From Mesorhizobium sp. 1M-11 (GTDB lineage: Bacteria; Pseudomonadota; Alphaproteobacteria; Rhizobiales; Rhizobiaceae), in NCBI RefSeq assembly GCF_001303895.1, contig NZ_LJSD01000011.1:1-64000 (forward strand): a stretch of DNA of 64,000 nt, written 5' to 3'. This document shows positions 4,097-26,634 of this stretch, piece after piece. The translations under genes were made by a program, and so were the position numbers. Each line of letters starts with the position of its first letter. Position 1 is the first letter of the stretch. The notes under the pieces are model-generated. The model was not told the origin of the DNA. It worked only from the letters and a program-made list of their open reading frames with translations, and did not search any database.

Positions 4097-4135
4097 GCAC
4101 TGACGTCGCGGATCAGCCGTGACGTCGATGGCGGC

Positions 4136-4164
4136 TGGATAAGGGGTTCGCCGTCGAGTGTCAA
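4136..4164 (-). promoter_or_regulatory. Sigma-70-type promoter of tRNA-Asp
   Basis: On the minus strand, TTGACA (4164-4159) and TATCCA (4141-4136) are separated by exactly 17 bases. The -35 is a perfect consensus match. Predicted start is around 4129, about 33 bases before the mature tRNA-Asp 5' end, a normal leader for a tRNA gene. Confidence 0.7.
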
Positions 4165-4204
4165 GCGACCCACGAGCGCTAATTGCAGTTCATGCGAAGG
4201 TTTT

Positions 4205-5499: not shown

Positions 5500-7584
5500 A
5501 TGGACCTTCCCATCTTTGCCATCAATCTCGACAGCGAAGTCGATCGCTGGGAAGAGCTGGCGGGCAATGCCGGCGCCGCTGGACTTTCCTTGCGCCGTGT
5601 ATCGGCGATCGATGGCAGGGCGCTGTCGACTGAGAATTGGAGCGGTGTCGACTTCGCTACTGCCAAGACGCAGAATGGGCGGGAGATCCTTTCGACAGAG
5701 CATGCCTGCTACCAGAGCCATCTTACTGCGCTGCGGGCATTCCTGGACGAAGACAAGCCATACGGGCTGATCATCGAAGATGATGTTGCTTTCGATGAGA
5801 GCACAGTGCGCCGGATCGAAGCGATCATCGCTGCCGTATCGGATTTCGATGCCATCAAGCTCACTACCCACAGAACCGGGCTGTTCGTGCGGGCCGTCAC
5901 AACTACGTGCGGCGACGAGATCGGGCGGGCACTCCATGGTCCGCAAGGCTCCGCAGCCGCCTATCTCGTGACAAGGCGAGGCGCGCAAAGGCTGATTTCC
6001 AAGCTCGCGACGATGACCTTGCCATGGGACATCGCTCTGGAGCGGTTCTGGGATTCCGGCCTCGAAGTCTATTCCACCCGCCAGAACGTATTGAACTTCA
6101 CGTCTCGCAGTGCCGTCTCCAGCATCGCGGGCCCCTCCGGAAGCTACAAAGGGGCCAGATTCTCTTGGTGGAAACGGCTGGGGACAGCCTCCTTCCGCAC
6201 GAAGGATCAGTTTCGACGTTTGCATCATGTCTTTCTGCGCCCGCCCCTGTACGGCGAGGCTCCGAACTATCCAACCTCCAAACAGCATTTGCTGTGGCAG
6301 ATACTGACGACACTTCTCGTATTGGCATTCGTGTCACCGGTTTGGCGGGAAGCCGACACCTACCGCTATGCCGGGATCGTCCTTTTCATGGCGGGTATCG
6401 TCCGCTGGCTGGGCAAGGATCTATGGACATACGGCAAGCCGCTGATCGGCGGGGTCGGTTTCCTCTGCTTCGGATGGGCCATTTACGCCTTTGCACGCCT
6501 GGCGACGGTCTATTTTACGAGTGGTCAACTCGGTACGGCCGAGGGCGTCTATCTGTTCCCGGCATTCTACGCGACCACGGGGTTTGCATTTCTAGCCTAC
6601 GTCAAGCGGCCAGCAGTGGTAGCCGCATGCTTCATGGTGGCCAGTCTTGCGTTTCTCGCCGCAGATACCAGCTATATCCAAGTTCTTCAGGGTGAGTGGC
6701 CAAAACCCTGGCTATTCAACAATACTATTCACGCCGCAATCGCGGCCGGCTTCATCTTTCTGTCCGCCATCCAGTTTGCGATCTACACCGGTGAACGCAG
6801 CGACCTGAAAGCGGGAAATAGAGTTTTTTACTGGTTACTTTCAGCAGCCGTATTGGTGTTTGCCGTCGTCAACATTGTCGCGCTGCGCTCGAAGGGCGTC
6901 TGGCTTGCTCTTGCGGCAGCGCTTCTGTTGTTGGTCGTTTTGGCTTTGATACGCGGAAGCCGTCACCATATATTCGTAGGCATCGGCGTGCTGGTTCTGA
7001 TCCTCGTGGGTCTTTTCTTCTCCTACGGCATCCTGTCGTCGACCGCAGGGGATACTGTTGCTTTCATCGGAAGGTCGATTTCGGATGTGACAACCAACGG
7101 CGTCGGCAACGCCCTCGATCATGCCATCAAAAGCGAGCTCACTCCTACTTCAGCTAAAGAGCGCCTGATGCTCTGGTCCAACGCGCTAGAGATTTGGAGA
7201 CATCATCCGGTCTTCGGCGCTAGTTCCGCCTGGCTTACGGAATGGCAGAACAGGACCTATCAAACTCAGATCTACGACGTCTTCCACAACGGCTATCTTG
7301 AAATTGCCGTGCGCTACGGCATCGTTGGATTGGCGTTCTATGCATTCCTGTTCAGTTGGGCGGCAAGACAGGTGCAGCAGGCAGCCAGAACGAAGCTCAT
7401 CGAACCCGCTGCGTGGCACTGCTATATTTCCACGCTGGTTTTCTTCGCCATCACCCTGCTTAGCAATTCCAACAACCGGCTGGCAATCGGCGAGGCTTAC
7501 ATGTGGTTCGCCGCTGCGTTCGGCTTCTATTGTTACTATCTACGCCAGCATGCCAGACAGGTCGAACCAAGGACGTATTTTTAG
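5500..7584 (+). CDS. Fusion: GT25 glycosyltransferase and O-antigen ligase/Wzy-like membrane domain
   Basis: A single 694-codon frame carries two activities. Residues 1-210 match LPS-type glycosyltransferase family 25: an INLD...DRW start, then EHACYQSHLTALRAF, the acidic IEDD at 92-95, and GSAAAYLVTRRGAQRL near 150-165. After a linker (210-262) come about ten hydrophobic segments to residue 690. These include the Wzy_C/O-antigen-ligase hallmarks: RSKGVWLA (463-470), the long periplasmic loop with NALEIWRHHPVFG (561-573), and HNGYLEIAVRYGIVGL (596-611). One protein could thus add a cytoplasmic sugar and join or polymerise glycan on the periplasmic side. The start has only a weak ribosome binding site. 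Downstream hairpin 7624-7652 separates it from convergent hupB. Domain boundaries are by eye. Confidence 0.88.
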   Translation: MDLPIFAINLDSEVDRWEELAGNAGAAGLSLRRVSAIDGRALSTENWSGVDFATAKTQNGREILSTEHACYQSHLTALRAFLDEDKPYGLIIEDDVAFDESTVRRIEAIIAAVSDFDAIKLTTHRTGLFVRAVTTTCGDEIGRALHGPQGSAAAYLVTRRGAQRLISKLATMTLPWDIALERFWDSGLEVYSTRQNVLNFTSRSAVSSIAGPSGSYKGARFSWWKRLGTASFRTKDQFRRLHHVFLRPPLYGEAPNYPTSKQHLLWQILTTLLVLAFVSPVWREADTYRYAGIVLFMAGIVRWLGKDLWTYGKPLIGGVGFLCFGWAIYAFARLATVYFTSGQLGTAEGVYLFPAFYATTGFAFLAYVKRPAVVAACFMVASLAFLAADTSYIQVLQGEWPKPWLFNNTIHAAIAAGFIFLSAIQFAIYTGERSDLKAGNRVFYWLLSAAVLVFAVVNIVALRSKGVWLALAAALLLLVVLALIRGSRHHIFVGIGVLVLILVGLFFSYGILSSTAGDTVAFIGRSISDVTTNGVGNALDHAIKSELTPTSAKERLMLWSNALEIWRHHPVFGASSAWLTEWQNRTYQTQIYDVFHNGYLEIAVRYGIVGLAFYAFLFSWAARQVQQAARTKLIEPAAWHCYISTLVFFAITLLSNSNNRLAIGEAYMWFAAAFGFYCYYLRQHARQVEPRTYF

Positions 7585-25647: not shown

Positions 25648-25674
25648 GGTCACATTCCCTGTCTGCCGTGCGTC
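25648..25674 (+). promoter_or_regulatory. Putative ECF promoter for the carboxymuconolactone-decarboxylase-type gene
   Basis: Plus strand: GGTCACA (25648-25654), 16 bases, CGTC (25671-25674). This is one base off the ECF41 consensus as I recall it (TGTCACA and CGTC). Predicted start is near 25680, about 80 bases before the gene. The -35 begins two bases from the sigma gene's start codon. Confidence 0.7.
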
Positions 25675-25682
25675 AAGCCGAT

Positions 25683-25709
25683 GACGAACGAAATCCGGCC
25701 GATGTGACC
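25683..25709 (-). promoter_or_regulatory. Putative ECF promoter for autoregulation of the sigma gene
   Basis: Minus strand: GGTCACA (25709-25703), 16 bases, CGTC (25686-25683). The two boxes and the spacer length match the opposing promoter at 25648-25674 exactly. Predicted start is near 25676, about 30 bases before the sigma ATG. The two -10 boxes are only eight bases apart, so the two initiation complexes would interfere. Confidence 0.7.
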
Positions 25710-25759: not shown

Positions 25760-26218
25760 ATGCAGGCGAGAATGAAAAACCCCGTCTTTGTTATTCCGGA
25801 GGCAATGCAGGCGCTGACCGCGCTCAACAAGGCCACGGAAAAGAGCGGCCTTTCCGAGGTCACCACCAAGCTGGTCCATCTGCGTGCCAGCCAGATCAAC
25901 GGCTGCAGCGTTTGCGTGGACATGCATGCGCAGGAATTGAAGAAGGCTGGCGAGACCGACCGCCGCATCTTCGCGGTTGCGGCCTGGCGCGACACGCCGT
26001 TCTTCAACGACGCCGAGCGAGCAGCACTCGCTTTGACCGAGGCCGTTACGCGCATTGCCGATCGTTCGGACGCTGTGCCGGATAATGTCTGGAACGAAGC
26101 CGCCAAATACTACGACGAAAAGGCCATATCCGGGCTGCTCCTGCAGATCGCGCAGATCAATGTGTGGAACCGGCTGAACGCCAGCGTGCGTCAGGTGGCG
26201 GGCGCTGCCTGGAATTGA
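25760..26218 (+). CDS. Carboxymuconolactone decarboxylase/AhpD-family protein
   Basis: A protein of about 152 residues of the AhpD-like helical fold. The thiol active-site pattern is CSVCVDMHAQELKKAG: CxxC three residues before a conserved His, as in peroxide- or oxidoreductase-type members. The flanking helices LVHLRASQINGC and ALALTEAVTRI are typical. The GGAG at 25747-25750 abuts the ATG at 25751 but sits nine bases from the ATG at 25760, so 25760 is preferred. Genes of this family are the usual targets of ECF41 sigma factors (known), and a matching promoter lies upstream. Likely role: disposal of a reactive or organic peroxide-type compound (inference). Confidence 0.93.
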   Translation: MQARMKNPVFVIPEAMQALTALNKATEKSGLSEVTTKLVHLRASQINGCSVCVDMHAQELKKAGETDRRIFAVAAWRDTPFFNDAERAALALTEAVTRIADRSDAVPDNVWNEAAKYYDEKAISGLLLQIAQINVWNRLNASVRQVAGAAWN

Positions 26219-26634
26219 GTGAGACACGCATTTGAAGGCCGGGCAAAAATGCTCCGGCCTTCAAAGCCGCTATTTGTTACGCTGCCTGGACATAGGCCAA
26301 TATCCAAGTGGTGATTGCGGTCAAGAACACGCCAATCGCGGAGGCTTCGCGCAGAGAACCTGGTGACCCCAAATGGCGCAAAATGCCGCTGATCCAGTCC
26401 ACAGGAATGTGGTAAAATAATACCTTTTGCATAAGCTATTGTTTTTTAATGAATTTTCACGGAGAACTCCACCTTTCATCGCTTGACGACATCCATCCTC
26501 TCTCCTATAAGCCCACGCAAAGCAGCGGCCCGCAAAGGCCGCCGTTTTGTTATTGGCGGCGGGCCGAGGCCGGCCGGCAATGAAAGCAACAAGAAACGCC
26601 TTCTTCTGAAGGTCCGAAACGAAAGCATGTAACC
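26219..26634. other. 416-base gap upstream of rplM with hairpins
   Basis: It contains a 12-bp stem hairpin at 26231-26265 (TTTGAAGGCCGG/CCGGCCTTCAAA, no T-run), a small minus-strand frame (26277-26432), an AT-rich patch around 26410-26455, and a GC hairpin followed by TTTT at 26524-26548 (GCGGCC/GGCCGC). The last lies in the probable rplM leader and could be an attenuator or autoregulatory element for L13. No named RNA recognised. Confidence 0.5.
26277..26432 (-). CDS. Possible small membrane protein, 51 residues
   Basis: An ATG-to-stop frame too short for most gene callers. It starts MQKVLFYHIPVDWISGI and ends with one hydrophobic segment (SAIGVFLTAITTWILAYVQ) fit for a single membrane span. 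No Shine-Dalgarno is visible before the ATG, and nothing resembles a named family, so chance cannot be ruled out. Confidence 0.3.
   Translation of the reverse strand: MQKVLFYHIPVDWISGILRHLGSPGSLREASAIGVFLTAITTWILAYVQAA

Follow-up and report, generated by a model that had tools for sequence, protein, structure and literature searches.

A 62-bp region in Mesorhizobium sp. 1M-11 carries the sequence GGTCACA-N16-CGTC on both strands, at 25648–25674 (+) and 25709–25683 (−), with the two copies facing each other and their CGTC boxes separated by exactly 8 bp (25675–25682). Positions are those of the window, the whole 64,000-nt stretch of DNA that was analyzed. These 62 bp probably form an autoregulatory bidirectional promoter, read by the ECF sigma factor encoded alongside, in which both directions share one bubble and initiation in one excludes the other. 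Such pairs occur beside related sigma genes in Pseudomonadota, Actinomycetota, Chloroflexota, Acidobacteriota, Myxococcota, and Dormibacterota, which makes this a recurrent design rather than a one-genome curiosity. The boxes, their spacing and recurrence, the match to start sites, and the covariation with residue 68 of the sigma factor can all be read from the sequences compared. The original prediction for this DNA missed two points: the recurrence of a nearly fixed geometry across phyla, and the apparent use of each −10 box as the start site of the opposing promoter.

That prediction described GGTCACA-16-CGTC occurring twice on opposite strands, face to face, with identical spacing and −10 boxes 8 bp apart, between a SnoaL-extended ECF sigma gene and a carboxymuconolactone decarboxylase (CMD)-type gene; the coordinates and the flanking genes bear this out (Table 1). 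The + motif faces the CMD gene and the − motif the sigma gene, so that the transcripts diverge. The motif is present twice in the 64 kb, with 0.08 copies expected, and two or more were obtained in 1 of 100 shuffles of the window with spacers of 14–18 permitted. In the whole 6.69-Mb genome, GTCACA-16-CGTC is found 11 times vs. seven for the pattern read backwards, so a single copy carries little meaning; the genome scan proposed with the original prediction thus finds single motifs at about chance level, and the paired arrangement alone stands out. Over the 62 bp, a contig of a Mesorhizobium sp. (L110) and a locus from a genome in the window's genus (L135) are identical to each other. At 25648–25660, the −35 box of the target promoter occupies the whole interval between the Shine-Dalgarno sequence and the ATG of the sigma gene, and the Shine-Dalgarno position is purine-rich in 57 dereplicated relatives as well.

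Table 1. Features of the promoter pair and its flanking genes in the window.
Feature	Position	Strand	Remarks
ECF sigma gene, SnoaL_2-like C-terminal extension, 291 aa	24771..25646	−	Asp68 in CLDMLR, sigma region 2
−35 box GGTCACA, target promoter	25648..25654	+	between ribosome-binding site and ATG of sigma gene
Shine-Dalgarno-like AGGGAA, sigma gene	25655..25660	−	8 nt 5' of ATG
−10 box CGTCA, target promoter	25671..25675	+	complement TGACG is the predicted start region of the sigma promoter
Putative shared melted region CGTC-N8-GACG	25671..25686	both	−12 to +4 of either promoter
Predicted +1 (G), sigma transcript	25674	−	leader 28 nt
−10 box CGTCA, sigma promoter	25682..25686	−	complement TGACG is the predicted start region of the target promoter
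Predicted +1 (G), target transcript	25683	+	9th base after CGTC; first base of opposing GACG
−35 box GGTCACA, sigma promoter	25703..25709	−	
Carboxymuconolactone decarboxylase/AhpD-type gene, CxxC (CSVC)	25751 or 25760 to 26218	+	PF02627, E 5e-21

The sigma factor scores over the cut-off for PF04542 and PF08281 and just under it for PF12680 (SnoaL_2; E 2e-5, 25.5 bits, cut-off 27 bits), and its best NCBIfam match is to the SigJ subfamily (230 bits, under the cut-off of 271). It has the architecture of the ECF41 group, with sigma regions 2 and 4 and a SnoaL/NTF2-like C-terminal extension of about 100 aa. The promoter sequence upstream of the COE gene, GGTCACA-16-CGTC, differs from the ECF41 one (TGTCACA) in its first base, and a CMD gene with a CxxC motif adjoins. 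Neither of the ECF41 signature motifs was found in the window sigma: WLPEP is absent from the linker between sigma2 and sigma4 even in the loosened form W[LM]P[EDTG]P, as is NPDKL near the C-terminus in the form NP[DEA][KR][LF], where ADRESL is present instead. A classical ECF41 assignment was therefore rejected. Both motifs are likewise absent in 150 of 154 face-to-face loci, while 61 of the 62 lower-scoring relatives carry one or both. By its sequence, the clade of the window sigma is ECF41-like and lies outside classical ECF41; newer classifications include other SnoaL-type groups, ECF294, ECF295, ECF205, and ECF56 (PMC8999054, PMC7730460).

The locus is sporadic: a match of at least 250 bits to the window sigma was found in just seven of the 146 genomes searched within the genus, a distribution suggestive of loss or lateral transfer. 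Elsewhere in the same genome (C8:25500-28200, L317) is a second operon, of classical ECF41 type, in which a CMD gene is followed by an overlapping sigma gene with WLPDP and NPDKL. One motif lies 531 nt before that sigma gene and another about 990 nt after its start, preceding an ORF that by eye looks like a glyoxalase/VOC gene. A third relative, at C1:508884, has a motif 962 nt upstream; three sigma factors in this genome thus have one promoter motif in common. As for the CMD gene of the window, its true start may be the ATG at 25760, since GGAG is found 9 nt ahead of it. Directly after the gene, an inverted repeat spotted by eye (TTTGAAGGCCGG ... CCGGCCTTCAAA, 26231–26265) is a possible terminator without a T run.

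Recurrence of the pair was examined in two ways. In the first, a collection described as covering 84,980 species with a single genome each was scanned for face-to-face pairs with exact boxes and a gap of 0–30 bp, so that the resulting histogram is unconstrained for gap and constrained for boxes. The matches listed include at least 119 loci holding 120 pairs, and in 103 of these pairs the gap is exactly 8 bp; the other gaps listed are 11 (five pairs), 9 (four), and, once each, 10, 23, 30, 21, 20, 5, 6, and 24. An ECF sigma ORF adjoins 99 of the 103 gap-8 pairs listed. On the partner side of these 99 there is a CMD ORF in 60, another ORF in 35, and none within the stretch in four; where the partner was not CMD, the longest ORF was taken, and the Pfam list of partners may include wrong ones. 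The remaining four gap-8 pairs listed comprise two CMD loci cut at the end, one with CMD and another ORF, and one (L041) with neither. The 99 sigma-adjoining loci listed come from 36 genera and six named phyla (Pseudomonadota 44, Actinomycetota 42, Chloroflexota 5, Acidobacteriota 4, Myxococcota 2, Dormibacterota 1, unassigned 1). Among 57 dereplicated gap-8 loci, in which the boxes are fixed by the search, 25 of the 32 spacer positions hold less than 0.7 bit.

A few of the scan loci depart from this pattern. In the pairs with gaps of 23 and 24 (L045:5243-5317 and L123:6556-6631), a GACG is still found exactly 8 bp after the left CGTC, and they look as if an insertion had displaced the opposing promoter. 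A Clostridia MAG (L029) has the face-to-face pattern twice, at 4114-4175 and 6991-7051, with gap 11 and no adjoining ECF ORF; this is probably an unrelated dispersed palindrome.

The second sample is independent of the motif, the sigma loci having been located by protein. It was drawn from a single-protein search of 146 genomes of the genus and from searches with a profile (A1) of 397 genomes of the phylum, 396 of the phylum of a Streptomyces, and 397 of the order, with paralogs and further hits added. At most six first-look candidates per genome were scored in the profile searches; all listed matches of the Streptomyces-phylum search were taken, and the lower-scoring matches of the phylum search were only sampled. 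Of 197 loci located in this way, 34 were dropped (30 best matches in genomes chosen by motif and four paralogs that are also scan loci), leaving 163, four of them also in the scan: 121 core loci at or above 270 bits and 42 below, a cut that leans toward relatives of the gap-8 loci from which the profile was built. When up to one mismatch per promoter is tolerated, a face-to-face pair is present in 47 of the 121 core loci, with gaps of 8 (26), 9 (10), 11 (10), and 4 (1). The others have a back-to-back pair (10), a sigma promoter only (18), a target promoter only (10), or none (36); in this search the reversed motif gave seven hits vs. 148 for the true one.

With the relaxed motif GTCACN-NGTC, both promoters are found in 60 core loci, face to face in 50 and back to back in 10, and no face-to-face pair was found in the other 71 of the 121. 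The arrangement is therefore common, not obligatory. Gaps in the 50 pairs are 8 (25), 9 (12), 11 (11), 16 (1), and 4 (1); thus, 8, 9, and 11 account for 48 of 50, vs. three of 31 if gaps of 0–30 were evenly spread, and in 47 of the 50 both promoter spacers are 16. The 10 back-to-back pairs are from 2 to 136 bp apart. No face-to-face pair was seen in 62 lower-scoring relatives, of which 50 have at least one relaxed promoter somewhere in the stretch. The interlocked geometry is nearly invariant where it occurs, and recurs across phyla. The gap-11 loci (L198, L204, L205, L208, L214, L217, L249, L250, L253, L261, and L297) have a near-constant center (ACTACTACAAT and close variants) and rather similar spacers, and close kinship may be all that unites them.

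An alternative is that these are two ordinary overlapping promoters of the same sigma factor, their spacing either a frozen accident or held only by the fit of the target −35 box into a short sigma leader. The leader of the window, 28 nt, is the commonest value among the gap-8 scan loci listed (46 of 99), placing the target −35 box between the ribosome-binding site and the ATG; 22 of the 25 protein-found gap-8 pairs keep the usual distance to the sigma start within 2 nt; and many loci may stem from few transferred copies. Among the gap-8 scan loci listed, the start site is 37–197 nt from the gene on the CMD side (63 loci) and 3–155 nt from it on the sigma side (99 loci); having been picked for gap 8, these loci show that leaders vary and not that the gap is constant. 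Leader and gap were therefore compared over all gaps, in the 109 scan loci listed with a sigma flank. Gap 8 is found in 66 of 73 with sigma leaders of 26–31 nt, and still in 23 of 26 with leaders of 36 nt or more (the other gaps being 10, 21, and 24), so the spacing is independent of the pair sitting at the sigma start codon. Spacing forced by the sigma leader alone was rejected on these grounds, yet most of the protein-found pairs do keep that leader. A FastTree phylogeny of 216 sigma factors requires a minimum of 14 changes of gap class among 8, 9, and 11, and a quick IQ-TREE of 80 rows requires 10, with other values rarely reached; both trees have weak support and long-branch warnings, so these numbers are rough. 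Repeated changes that nearly always end at the same three values point to selection on spacing in these sequences, rather than to a single frozen ancestor, and the back-to-back pairs have no such fixed spacing. Two merely overlapping promoters are thus an unlikely account of the arrangement, if one with some weight.

The bidirectional promoter with a shared bubble is also favored by the probable positions of the start sites. The mapped start of the SMb20029-rpoE9 operon in S. meliloti is 9 nt downstream of the motif (PMC3616915; promoter sequence in PMC6180224). For ECF41, the start is given as a G and then 22/23 nt, while Table 5 of the same paper lists 31/32 for the same genes (PMC3426412); by the reading made here, the difference of nine fits a +1 at the ninth base after the box. 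Among operon-type promoters of the lower-scoring relatives (30 from 62 loci, 23 after dereplication), 15 of a set of 16 have a pyrimidine-purine step at bases 8–9 after CGTC, base 9 being G in 12 and A in four; across all 23 the agreement is less strict, with 20 having a purine at base 9 and 19 a pyrimidine at base 8.

With a start 9 nt past the −10 box, each CGTCA at gap 8 coincides with the start of the other promoter, which it supplies as its complement TGACG. In agreement with this, the step at bases 8–9 is present in 49 of 50 promoters of the gap-8 pairs, where the opposing TGACG provides it as its T-G. The step is shifted by one base in gap-9 pairs (bases 9–10, 18 of 24) and still falls on the opposing box. 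In gap-11 pairs it is at bases 8–9 (21 of 22) but inside the gap itself, so that the opposing box is not used as a start, and among back-to-back promoters just 13 of 20 have it. The A following CGTC is conserved in 88% of gap-8 loci vs. 70% of partnerless promoters; recognition of the −10 element by ECF sigma factors spans −12 to −7, including −8, with melting from −12 (PMC6372665). Among core promoters without a face-to-face partner, TGA is found at bases 8–10 after CGTC in 16 of 44; no other offset between 1 and 19 has it in more than two. These promoters may include some decayed pairs; the lower-scoring relatives have no such peak (one of 28). For the window, the predicted +1 positions are 25683 (+) and 25674 (−), each with TGA spanning −1 to +2.

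The two −10 boxes also vary together, and with the sigma factor. In the protein-found loci their first bases are identical in 39 of 50 pairs, vs. 25.8 expected by shuffling (p = 5e-5). When all sigma columns were screened against a non-C first base in the sigma-side −10 box, residue 68 (the D of CLDMLR) gave p = 8e-21 and the next column 2e-7. In the 60 protein-found loci with two promoters, Asn68 goes with a change in both boxes in 17 of 17, and Asp68 with C in both in 41 of 43, the remaining two (L196 and L288) being changed on the sigma side only. Addition of the scan loci brings the latter figure to 137 of 139, but those loci in the resulting 156-locus table have C in both boxes by construction, from which the 60-locus table is free. 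Among single-promoter loci, all 20 with Asp have C, and four of the five with Asn have another base; the exception to the rule is L238, with Asn68, an intact CGTC, and a sigma-side promoter only. Asp/Asn switches number eight on the FastTree phylogeny and nine on the quick IQ-TREE. Only two independent pairs for comparison of residue and box lie on well-supported branches; both agree (sign test p = 0.5), and all branches of the best trees yield eight to nine such pairs. In an ECF open complex there is a pocket for base −12 (PMC6372665), and residue 68 may form this pocket in the window sigma.

Residue and gap are distributed unevenly with respect to each other: among protein-found loci, Asn68 is found in nine of 12 with gap 9, four of 11 with gap 11, and none of 25 with gap 8. 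The Asn68 loci with a longer gap are L208, L210, L213, L215–L217, L220, L230, L249, L251, L253, L256, and L299. A corresponding code between the −35 box and sigma residues was rejected as weak, the lowest uncorrected p across all columns and residues being 5e-4. The last bases of the two −35 boxes show marginal agreement (permutation p = 0.05 in face-to-face loci, 0.002 with back-to-back pairs added), and no agreement of their first bases was found in face-to-face loci (p = 0.22; 0.012 with back-to-back pairs).

The original prediction that one promoter drives the sigma gene and the other its neighbor, and hence that the sigma factor is autoregulated, is supported both by the motif, which is that of related ECF41 sigma factors (PMC3426412), and by the covariation of residue 68 with the first bases of both −10 boxes. 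If instead just one of the two matches were functional, most likely the target promoter, the other would be a relic or a chance match. Single-promoter loci do exist, in the numbers given above for the one-mismatch search (18 sigma-side and 10 target-side among 121), but the joint change of both boxes with residue 68 and the rarity of two matches in shuffled windows make this very doubtful. The dyad CGTCA-N6-TGACG, a near-perfect palindrome at the center, could in principle be the operator of a dimeric repressor or activator and not a promoter pair, a reading rejected as barely credible in view of the 16-bp promoter spacing kept by the outer boxes, the occurrence of the same half alone as a mapped promoter of related sigma factors, and a residue in the DNA-reading region of the sigma factor that tracks the boxes.

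Under the preferred reading, a bidirectional promoter with a shared bubble, RNA polymerase with the neighbor-encoded sigma factor would bind the dyad-symmetric 62 bp in either of two orientations. Leftward initiation would produce the sigma factor itself, as positive autoregulation, and rightward initiation the CMD/AhpD-type target. Each −10 box (CGTCA, −12 to −8) would serve as −1 to +4 of the other promoter, giving it a pyrimidine-G start. Since CGTC-N8-GACG covers −12 to +4 and the bubble at ECF promoters extends to −12, nearly the same 12–14 bp would be melted in either open complex, and the two would be mutually exclusive, with one polymerase engaged at a time; the regulator would then probably make itself or its target at any moment, not both together. 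The mutual interference originally predicted is therefore likely, the melted regions being nearly the same DNA. The collision of initiating polymerases that went with it was rejected: from the predicted start sites polymerases would leave in opposite directions, each crossing the other's −35 box, and the conflict would be one of site occupancy and of running over that box. Exclusive occupancy would fix the sigma:target ratio and cap positive feedback. By analogy with the bidirectional promoters of E. coli, both genes would be made independently at low sigma levels and compete at high ones. The start sites in this genome, mutual exclusion, and any effect on feedback are in this sense predictions from sequence.

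A broader proposal can be offered tentatively, as a possibility that falls short of being likely: that the clade, lying outside classical ECF41, relies on one interlocked promoter to act as a built-in limiter, standing in for a missing anti-sigma factor and for the WLPEP/NPDKL latch. Positive autoregulation could then not run away, the ratio of the two products would be set by DNA alone, and the 62 bp plus sigma factor could travel between phyla and become attached to different targets. This would suggest a means for an ECF sigma factor without an obvious anti-sigma neighbor to restrain its own positive feedback. Promoter competition as a control principle becomes testable here with one protein and 62 bp of DNA, and the relatives form a natural series in which sigma residue 68 varies along with gap and start site.

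Among known systems, the EcfG-dependent phyR and nepR-ecfG divergent units of Alphaproteobacteria are similar in that a sigma operon and a divergent unit both have EcfG promoters, resulting in amplification (PMC8103513); in the window, too, the sigma gene and divergent unit both appear to be under promoters of that sigma factor. Compared by description only, they differ in that EcfG controls a general stress regulon, and no overlapping or interlocked geometry is given in the available text. Closer in geometry are the bidirectional promoters described in E. coli and other prokaryotes by Warman, Grainger and co-workers (PMC12825309), where polymerase binds pseudo-symmetric DNA in two exclusive orientations and the divergent starts are typically separated by 18 bp, in other cases by 10 or 23, next to or inside a shared −10 element. 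The window pair resembles them in symmetry and geometry, with predicted starts 9 bp apart and in the opposing −10 box. Competition at those tested in E. coli was seen only once activity was high, and constraint by interference lowers expression noise (PMC12825309). In contrast to these, one dedicated ECF sigma factor appears to read the window pair both ways, there are two full sets of −35 and −10 boxes, and the sigma factor would make itself in one direction; a fixed geometry spread over phyla is not reported for bidirectional promoters in the available text of PMC12825309.

The closest relatives are the SnoaL-extended ECF41 sigma factors, which use TGTCACA-N16-CGTC (Wecke et al., 2012; PMC3426412). 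They share with the window the SnoaL-type extension, a CMD, oxidoreductase, or epimerase neighbor, the −35 and −10 boxes, and the spacer; the clade of the window differs in lacking WLPEP and NPDKL and in having the face-to-face pairs that are absent from the 62 lower-scoring relatives. In 55 divergent ECF41 sigma/COE pairs, the motif was present before sigma in 36 and before COE in 41 (PMC3426412). In the two organisms tested, the targets were limited to the COE gene or its operon (PMC3426412), which counts against a self-reading bidirectional model, though both of those sigma factors are classical ECF41. How the two promoters lie with respect to each other is not stated in the ECF41 text available (PMC3426412), and no published description of the interlocked geometry was found in the accessible parts of the literature searched on ECF41 and bidirectional promoters. 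Overall, that the ECF41 motif often precedes both divergent genes is known (PMC3426412); the recurrent interlocked geometry, and its covariation with the sigma factor, are new here.
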